NCBI RefSeq assembly: GCF_004321985.1
Contig: NZ_SCQN01000044.1
Span: 147,620 to 211,619 of the forward strand
Reading direction: 5' to 3'
Source of the DNA: Castellaniella sp.
GTDB taxonomy: Bacteria > Pseudomonadota > Gammaproteobacteria > Burkholderiales > Burkholderiaceae_B
Length of the DNA: 64,000 nt
This document shows positions 23,107-25,663 of the stretch, piece by piece. The position numbers and the translations under genes are program-made. The notes under the pieces are model-generated. The model did no database searches, was not told the DNA's origin, and saw nothing but the letters and a program-made list of their open reading frames with translations. How positions within the stretch are numbered: position 1 is the first letter of the stretch; each line of letters opens with the position of its first letter.

Positions 23107-23131
23107 ATACTTGACTCAATTAGTCGGGTAT
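23107..23131. promoter_or_regulatory. Type 1 IscR binding site overlapping the isc promoter
   Basis: ATACTTGACTCAATTAGTCGGGTAT matches ATASYYGACTRWWWYAGTCRRSTAT at nearly every position; TTGACT-17-GATATG promoter overlaps it. Confidence 0.85.
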
Positions 23132-23172
23132 CAGATATGCCCAATGACTAGCATCGAATAGTGAGGCCTATC

Positions 23173-23697
23173 ATGCGTTTGACGACCAAGGGACGATTTG
23201 CAGTAACTGCGATGATCGATCTGGCTTTGCGGGCTCATAGCGGACCGGTGACGCTGGCCGCCATCAGCGAACGGCAGAACATCTCGCTGTCCTATCTGGA
23301 GCAGCTTTTTGGCAAGTTGCGTCGTCATGAGTTGGTCGACAGCGTTCGCGGGCCTGGCGGTGGCTATACGCTGGCGCGTCATGCACGCGACATCTCCGTG
23401 GCCGGCGTCATTTTCGCGGTGGACGAGCCGCTCGACGCAACGAGCTGCGGCGGCAAAGAAAATTGCAACATCGGCCGCAATGGGCATACTGGAAAGTGCA
23501 TGACCCATGATCTGTGGGCGACGCTGAGCCGAAAGATGGTAGAGTATCTGGATTCGGTCTCGCTGCAAGATCTGGTGGATCAGCAGCGCCTGCGTGAATG
23601 GCAGGAATCCGGCCAGCTGCGAGCGGGCCTGAAGTCCACCGGCCGCAAGGTTCCAGCGCGCCAGGCGGAACCTCTGGAGGAGACCGTCTCGGCCTGA
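23173..23697 (+). CDS. iscR: Fe-S cluster-responsive Rrf2 regulator IscR
   Basis: MRLTTKGRFAVTAMIDLAL...[40 protein letters not shown] cluster ligands. Confidence 0.95.
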   Translation: MRLTTKGRFAVTAMIDLALRAHSGPVTLAAISERQNISLSYLEQLFGKLRRHELVDSVRGPGGGYTLARHARDISVAGVIFAVDEPLDATSCGGKENCNIGRNGHTGKCMTHDLWATLSRKMVEYLDSVSLQDLVDQQRLREWQESGQLRAGLKSTGRKVPARQAEPLEETVSA

Positions 23698-23720: not shown

Positions 23721-24929
23721 ATGTCGTTGTCGCCCCCCGTGTATCTGGATTACTCCGCCACCACGCCGGTGGACGAGCGGGTGGTCCAGGCGATGCTGCC
23801 GTGGCTCGGCGAACGCTTCGGCAACGCGGCTTCCACCAGCCACGCCTGGGGCTGGGATGCCAGCGAGGCTGTCGAGCAGGCTCGTGCTCAAGTTGCAGGA
23901 CTGATCCATGCCGATCCACGCGAGATCATCTGGACATCCGGTGCGACCGAGTCCGACAATCTGGCGATCAAGGGCGTGGCGCAATTCCATGGTGGGCGCG
24001 GGCGTCACATCGTGACGGTTCGCACCGAACACAAGGCTGTCCTCGACACCTGTCATGCGCTGGAGCAGGGCGGGTTCGAGGTCACCTATCTGGATGTGGA
24101 CGCTGGCGGGCTGGTGACGCCCGAGGCTTTGGCGGCCGCCTTGCGCCCGGACACCATTCTGGCGTCCGTGATGCTGGTGAATAATGAAATAGGGGTCATC
24201 CAGGACGTCGCTGCGCTGGCGGCCGTGTGTCATCAGCGGGGCGTACTGTTTCATACCGATGCGGCGCAGGCCACCGGGAAGATTCCCGTCGACGCGGCTG
24301 GGATGGACGTGGACTTGATGTCGCTGTCGGCACACAAGACCTACGGGCCCAAGGGAATCGGTGCGCTTTACGTGCGCCGCAAGCCTCGTGTGCGTCTGGA
24401 AGCACAGATGCACGGAGGTGGGCACGAGCGGGGCTTGCGCTCCGGGACGCTGCCCACGCATCAGATCGTCGGCATGGGTGCTTCATTCGAGCTGGCCGGG
24501 CAACTCATGGCGACGGAGCTTCCCAGGATCGGCGCATTGCGCGACCGTCTCTGGGAAGGCTTGCGCGATCTGCCCGACGTCTATCTCAATGGCGATCCAG
24601 CTCGGCGCGTTGTCCACAACCTGAACATCAGCGTGGCGCATGTCGAAGGCGAGGCACTGCTCATGTCCGTCCCGGAACTGGCGGTTTCGTCTGGTTCAGC
24701 CTGCACGTCGGCCAGCCTGGAACCGTCGCACGTCCTGCGCGCGCTAGGGCGCAGCGATCTGCTCGCACACAGTTCCCTGCGCATGACGATAGGCCGCTAT
24801 ACGTCCGATACGGATGTGGATCTGGCGATTCGCGTGCTGCGGACGCAGATTCAACGCCTGCGCGAGCTCTCGCCGCTCTGGGAAATGCGTGAACGAGGTA
24901 CTCTGGGCGCCTGGATGGAGACCTGCTGA
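23721..24929 (+). CDS. iscS: Cysteine desulfurase IscS
   Basis: [19 protein letters not shown] Lys [12 protein letters not shown], active-site loop [20 protein letters not shown]. Confidence 0.95.
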
Positions 24930-25318
24930 TGGCTGGTCTGCCGTACGGGCCGCTGGTTCTGGATCACTATCTGCATCCGCGCAACGTAGGGTCTCTGGAT
25001 CCGGCGGATGCGCGTGTGGGGTCTGCACTGGTCGGATCTCCGGTCCTGGGCGAGGTACTCAAGCTCCAGATCTTCCTGCAGGACGGAACCATCACCCAGG
25101 CTCGCTTTCGCGCGTTTGGTGGTGGTTCGGCGATTGCCGCGGGTTCGTGGCTGACCGAACAACTACAGGGCCAAAGTCTGAACCATGCGCTGGGCATCCG
25201 CAGTCAGGACATCATGAGTGCCCTGAACCTTCCGCCTGTGAAGATGCATTCGGCGTTGCTCGCCGAAGATGCCATCCGGGCCGCAGTAGCTGATTACACG
25301 CAAAAACACTCTCAATAA
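24929..25318 (+). CDS. IscU-like scaffold homologue lacking all cysteines
   Basis: PRNVGSLD, VGSALVGSP, KLQIFLQDG, GSAIAAGSWLTEQLQGQSL, LPPVKMHSALLAEDAIRAAVADY; canonical Cys positions are Leu, Gly and Ser. Confidence 0.93.
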   Translation: MAGLPYGPLVLDHYLHPRNVGSLDPADARVGSALVGSPVLGEVLKLQIFLQDGTITQARFRAFGGGSAIAAGSWLTEQLQGQSLNHALGIRSQDIMSALNLPPVKMHSALLAEDAIRAAVADYTQKHSQ

Positions 25319-25340
25319 CCCCCTCAAGTGAGTTGCATCA

Positions 25341-25663
25341 TGGGAATTACATTGACATCGCAAGCAGCCGAGCATATCCAGCGCAATCTGGAAAAGCGGG
25401 GCAAGGGCCTGGGGCTGCGCCTGGGCGTGAAGCCGGCTGGCTGTTCCGGTCTGTCTTACCAACTGGAGTATGTGGACGATCCAACCGCTGAAGATCAGGT
25501 GTTCGAGCAGTTCGGCGCGCGGGTCTACGTCGCGCCCGACAGCCTGCCGTATCTGCAGGGAACCGAACTCGACTATGCGCGTGAGGGCCTGAACGAGGGG
25601 TTTCGCTTCCACAACCCGAATGAAAAGGCGGCTTGTGGGTGTGGGGATTCGTTCACAGTCTGA
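25341..25663 (+). CDS. iscA: A-type Fe-S carrier protein IscA
   Basis: [17 protein letters not shown] and [10 protein letters not shown] three-Cys signature. Confidence 0.95.

Follow-up and report, generated by a model that had tools for sequence, protein, structure and literature searches.

SufU is the Zn-dependent sulfurtransferase of the SUF system, and CyaY and IscX are non-scaffold proteins that bind IscS and tune it. Canonical IscU of E. coli touches IscS via Y3, Y11, G38, V40, K42, K59-G64 and K103, the IscS residues that face it are 309-316, 347 and 379-391, and binding is abolished by K103E or by deletion of IscS residues 376-404 (PMC2854127). On the same E. coli enzyme, IscU and TusA compete and alter its activity (PMC11302665), while D39, N90, S107 and E111 set the equilibrium between structured and disordered states of E. 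coli IscU (PMC13423590). In Methanosarcina acetivorans, whose genome lacks HscBA, IscU3 carries His in place of C37 (PMC7585200).

We describe here an IscU homologue of Castellaniella sp. with no cysteine at all, encoded within a stretch of 64,000 nucleotides (the window). In its place after iscS, its full-length homology and its fold it is like canonical E. coli IscU (TIGR01999; structures 3lvl and 2l4x), with which it shares H105, the LPPVK motif, Y3 and K103; unlike canonical IscU, it is without C37, D39, C63 and C106, it scores below the equivalog cut-off, and its genome lacks HscBA, Fdx and CyaY. SufU (TIGR01994/SUF_scaf_2) belongs to the same superfamily and likewise serves a cysteine desulfurase, but the protein reaches only 37.6 bits against the SufU cut-off of 92.5, has none of the Zn/persulfide cysteines nor any other thiol, and stands in a genome with its own SufU beside sufS. 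The replaced C37 and the absence of HscBA recall M. acetivorans IscU3, which differs in keeping D39, C63 and C106, in being archaeal, and in having no link to the loss of a former HscBA system (PMC7585200). The likeness to CyaY and IscX is a works-like analogy only, their folds being unrelated and their site on IscS different; CyaY is itself absent from Castellaniella. Judged by its sequence, the protein is homologous to IscU but does not have the ligands by which an IscU is defined. In the openly licensed literature we found no earlier description of a cysteine-free IscU, nor any report of an association between C37 and HscBA.

The isc operon and its cysteine-free IscU

The features of the locus are as follows; counts compare aligned IscUs with and without hscA in their locus.

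23107..23131, forward strand: IscR type-1-like box 5' of iscR, one mismatch to the consensus
23161..23697, forward strand: iscR, Fe-S regulator, Cys/His ligands retained (TIGR02010 above cut-off; alignment)
23721..24929, forward strand: iscS, cysteine desulfurase with conserved catalytic Cys loop, helix 379-391 and TusA-site residues, and with an altered C-terminal tail and Glu347
24929..25318, forward strand: cysteine-free IscU homologue, 129 aa (translation, NifU_N and TIGR01999 matches, purifying selection, IscU fold)
25046..25048, forward strand: Leu codon (L40) at canonical ligand C37 (Cys in 31/31 with hscA, 0/25 without)
25052..25054, forward strand: Glu codon (E42) at canonical D39 (D39 in 31/31 versus 5/25)
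25121..25123, forward strand: Gly codon (G65) at canonical ligand C63 (C63 in 20/25 without hscA; Ser in two other Castellaniella)
25250..25252, forward strand: Ser codon (S108) at canonical ligand C106 (C106 in 23/25 without hscA)
25340..25663, forward strand: iscA, A-type carrier, three Cys retained (TIGR02011 above cut-off; alignment)

The gene order is iscR-iscS-iscU-iscA, with the iscU start overlapping the iscS stop (TGATG); hscB, hscA and fdx are absent 3' of iscA, where a convergent lysS is found instead. Scanning with an IscR type-1 consensus returned the box at 23107-23131 as the sole such site in the 64 kb window. Similar IscR-type sites lie upstream of iscR in the other Castellaniella loci; in three relatives the surroundings of the SUF loci were searched too, and no such box was found there.

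Translation of the reading frame at 24929-25318 (forward strand) yields 129 residues with zero cysteines and zero internal stops. The product matches NifU_N at 123.9 bits (Pfam cut-off 22) and aligns with positions 1-123 of the 124 in TIGR01999, that is, over its whole length, at a score of 144.4 against the equivalog cut-off of 192.4 bits. Alignment to canonical IscUs from the same order gives, in E. coli numbering, the replacements C37L, D39E, C63G and C106S; H105 (own H107), K103 (own K105) and the full LPPVK motif are retained, so that of the two fourth-ligand positions D39 has become Glu and H105 remains. Translation and alignment thus confirmed the motif comparison of an earlier sequence-only reading, which had noted the lack of Cys and the replacement of all three ligands. 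An AlphaFold2 model built from 12 sequences (pLDDT 92.4, pTM 0.85) is matched best, among PDB structures, by the IscS-bound E. coli IscU of 3lvl (TM 0.93, 0.7 A).

The genome of the window species (3.4 Mb, 99.6% complete, a draft of 86 contigs) encodes TusA, SufB and a SufD-like match, and none of the partners HscA, HscB, ferredoxin and CyaY was found in it. A search for a second IscU or a SUF system, proposed with that reading, returned no second canonical IscU, and located SUF elsewhere in the genome, its SufU bearing cysteines: the two other NifU_N proteins are of SufU type with cysteines, one sitting in sufS-sufU-sufT. The other (L003:1492-1917, on contig C75) is flanked by genes for an XdhC homologue on one side and a MobA-like nucleotidyltransferase on the other, and perhaps serves molybdenum-enzyme maturation.

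Graded ligand loss and the absence of HscA and HscB

All ten Castellaniella genomes carry iscR-iscS-iscU-iscA without hscB, hscA or fdx, and have SUF and no CyaY; HscB, HscA over cut-off, the isc ferredoxin and CyaY were absent from each of these genomes as a whole. IscU is nonetheless present and stop-free in 10/10, with K42 retained in every one. Position 37 is L, V or I throughout, and the uniformly canonical close relatives that the sequence-only reading had named as evidence against itself are thus not seen, every Castellaniella IscU being without C37. At position 39, D is changed to Q or E in 10/10. C63 is Ser in two species and Gly in the window species, C106 is lost in the window species only, and LPPVK, intact there, is changed in part of L99-V102 in most sisters. 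On these alignments the window species stands at the far end of a graded ligand loss within the genus. Position 57, which is Cys in 9/10 Castellaniella IscUs, is Arg in the window protein, leaving it without every cysteine that its sisters carry. Of 63 positions that do not vary among the nine sister species, five are changed in it, and these include both invariant cysteines, C57 and C106; the hypergeometric probability of this is about 0.005, which argues that the cysteine loss is not due to chance.

An artefact of sequencing or assembly, to which a draft of 86 contigs lends some color, has a negligible probability and was rejected, since three separate codons are affected in an open frame on a 211-kb contig, and the graded loss of the same ligands, including that of C37, recurs in nine other assemblies, among them the single-contig genome G006.

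Codon models for Castellaniella gave omega values of 0.089 for iscU, 0.054 for iscS and 0.052 for iscA. On the branch to the iscU of the window species omega was 0.073, and lnL was lower by about 1.9 when omega was set near 0.2 and by 10.2 when it was set to 1; synonymous change on this branch is saturated and the value is an average along it, compatible with a short recent neutral phase. A pseudogene was rejected on the open frame and on this likelihood. That ligand loss combined with fold retention speaks against random decay, as proposed from the sequence, was borne out by the rejection of neutrality at a branch dN/dS of 0.073 and by the pLDDT of 92. As selection still preserves it, the protein probably does something other than build clusters.

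Gene content was surveyed in 61 genomes of the order, in which further SUF-bearing family members also have no HscB, isc ferredoxin or CyaY, and no HscA that is isc-linked or scores over cut-off. The IscU alignment comprised 56 sequences, 31 with hscA in the locus and 25 without, leaving out of the counts a truncated IscU of the hscA genome G020, in which C37 is present, and a paralogue of G059. Cys37 was found in 31/31 of the former and 0/25 of the latter, making position 37 the sole site of zero retention among 81 conserved positions. D39 fell from 31/31 to 5/25, and the other ligand positions were largely kept without hscA (C63 20/25, H105 22/25, C106 23/25), as were the IscS contacts Y3 and K103, each in 25/25. 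This alignment across Burkholderiales, one of the checks suggested with the sequence-only reading, confirmed the ligand loss and showed that loss of C37 tracks the absence of hscA. Two genomes with SUF and a complete ISC system (G025 and G026) retain C37, as would be expected of intermediates.

An out-of-sample pattern scan of about 85,000 GTDB species returned 11 C37-less IscU records, a lower bound because the strict pattern missed other C37-less forms of this analysis. Six are from Castellaniella, and five from Candidimonas humi, Pollutimonas nitritireducens and three other Pseudomonadota MAGs; in the six of these genomes that were tested, including all five outside the genus, HscA over cut-off was found in 0/6 and SufB in 6/6. 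The independence of these losses of C37 is limited: a UvrB tree gives two changes if only branches with support are counted and five on the best tree, with RBG_16_57_12 an additional case outside that tree. Branches with support provide two independent pairs, too few for a significant sign test, and both pairs go the way expected.

Other departures were seen in the same material. The IscU of the SZAS CTRL-40 MAG (L057:3645-4043) has lost all three ligands (C37G, C63S, C106S) and kept other cysteines; this genome stands on a separate UvrB-tree branch from the window species, and its IscU is an unrelated second case of ligand loss. The IscU of G013 (L046:6759-7163), from a genome with SUF and without HscBA, is only 34% to canonical and still lies between iscS and iscA; C63, H105, C106 and K103 are retained in it. 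The HscB match of the small genome G023 (C1:1045896-1046339) contains one in-frame TAA, and several SUF-only genomes of the order have no IscU. Position 57, canonically Lys/Arg, is Cys in 13/25 IscUs without hscA and 1/31 with it (for example L039:7195-7686, reverse strand), a distribution that needs four changes on the UvrB tree; Cys57 may be a thiol that was acquired more than once close to C63.

Two alternatives bear directly on these ligand counts. IscUs without HscBA could pass persulfide from IscS via C63 and C106, often together with a gained C57, as SufU does for SufS, the window protein being a descendant of such a form. Retention of C63 in 20/25 and C106 in 23/25 despite C37 in 0/25, together with the distribution of Cys57, agrees with such a relay, which may apply to the relatives with two cysteines, half of which have Cys57; the window protein has no thiol, so a relay cannot be what it does at present and at best describes its relatives, and we consider this account as a whole improbable. 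More improbable still is continued scaffolding through non-cysteine or intersubunit ligands, with release of the cluster independent of HscBA. H105 and a carboxylate at position 39 (Glu) are retained, the His37 form of M. acetivorans IscU3 likewise occurs without HscBA (PMC7585200), and positions favouring the structured state are changed: D39, N90, S107 and E111 have a mean retention of 0.42 against 0.75 (permutation p 0.004), a lead only, the set having been chosen post hoc. Against this stand the zero cysteines, the loss of the ferredoxin and CyaY partners as well, and a SUF system complete enough to serve. Without C37, D39, C63 and C106, the protein has no means of binding a cysteine-ligated [2Fe-2S] cluster or of taking up persulfide, and we are confident that it is neither a cysteine-ligated scaffold nor a persulfide carrier, and that it represents the end of a stepwise loss tied to SUF takeover and to the loss of HscBA, Fdx and CyaY.

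IscS and the retention of IscU

In the IscS of Castellaniella, helix 379-391 has stayed intact, with 98.6% of its conserved positions kept across the genus and 7/7 in the window species, as has the TusA/ThiI surface (W45, R55, R220, R237). Glu347 and most of the tail beyond residue 393 are changed, and Arg112/Arg116, which belong to the CyaY/IscX surface, are eroded. This pattern fits an enzyme that now hands its sulfur solely to acceptors other than ISC cluster assembly. Among the related loci the IscS tail is uniform (W401, H404) in 32/32 with hscA; many IscSs from loci that lack hscA have a shorter tail or one of scrambled sequence (24890-24929 in the window), and Arg112/Arg116 are eroded among them as well. 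On the IscU side, the IscS-contact positions as a class show no significant excess conservation in Castellaniella (0.71 versus 0.68 for other conserved positions).

We propose that the window protein is a retired scaffold kept to dock on IscS and tune the supply of sulfur to TusA and other acceptors, an account to which we assign a probability of about 0.5. SUF would have taken over cluster assembly in the lineage, after which HscB, HscA, the isc ferredoxin and CyaY would have been lost and the operon would have shrunk to iscR-iscS-iscU-iscA; IscU would next have lost C37 and mostly D39, and in the window species additionally C63 and C106. The remaining protein would persist as an IscU-fold protein under purifying selection, docking at the old IscU site of IscS and tuning the share of sulfur that goes to TusA for tRNA thiolation and Moco. 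As IscU and TusA compete for IscS in E. coli, an IscU without ligands could still throttle or steer sulfur. The invariance of Y3 and K103 (25/25), the intact IscS helix, the presence of TusA and the kept TusA site of IscS count for docking; the decay of Glu347 and of the IscS tail counts against it, in that docking of IscU could have ceased to be selected, as does the lack of excess conservation of the contact positions as a class, and the faster evolution of iscU than of iscS and iscA (0.089 versus 0.054 and 0.052) counts against the modulator account. Gene content, ligand loss, its association with the loss of HscBA, selection on the sequence and the predicted fold are computed results; the order of events, the binding to IscS and the modulatory effect are inferred from them, and retention as an IscS-docking modulator appears about as probable as its contrary.

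The main rival of this modulator reading is a slowly fading relic with no function of its own, kept by its place in the translationally coupled iscS-iscA operon, with selection acting only against misfolding or disruption of the message. The faster evolution of iscU than of its operon neighbours, the decay of LPPVK and of the IscS tail, the strong divergence of the G013 protein (34%) and the complete loss of IscU from several SUF-only genomes would all follow from such a state; the omega of 0.073 on the window branch with neutrality rejected, the stop-free IscU in 10/10 Castellaniella and the invariance of Y3 and K103 in 25/25 would not, and we judge the relic the less likely of the two, although the protein may be either. 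The repurposing suggested by the sequence-only reading is therefore consistent with the lost ligands and the kept fold and selection, and stops short of being demonstrated, whereas the sulfur relay that it also entertained is excluded for a protein without a thiol. Absent from that reading were the graded loss across the lineage and its coupling to the disappearing HscB, HscA, Fdx and CyaY, the retention of C63 and C106 by most relatives, and the partial decay of the IscS tail.

Significance for ISC systems

The ligand cysteines of IscU are generally taken to be invariant. The forms described here make up a natural series, from the full scaffold through C37-less forms with two cysteines to a cysteine-free form, that is associated with the loss of HscB, HscA, Fdx and CyaY and along which the active residues of IscS, IscA and IscR persist. 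Two groups of IscU residues part along this series: C37 and D39 disappear together with the chaperone branch, and C63, C106, K103 and Y3 remain after that branch is lost. With more reserve than for the single protein, we suggest that IscU may have a cluster- and thiol-independent role as an IscS-binding modulator of sulfur allocation, visible only after SUF takeover and the loss of HscBA, Fdx and CyaY, with C37 the first residue to be released. A cluster-independent role of IscU on IscS becomes directly testable in strains of Castellaniella, Pollutimonas and Candidimonas. For surveys of genomes, the presence of iscU is not equivalent to the presence of an ISC scaffold.
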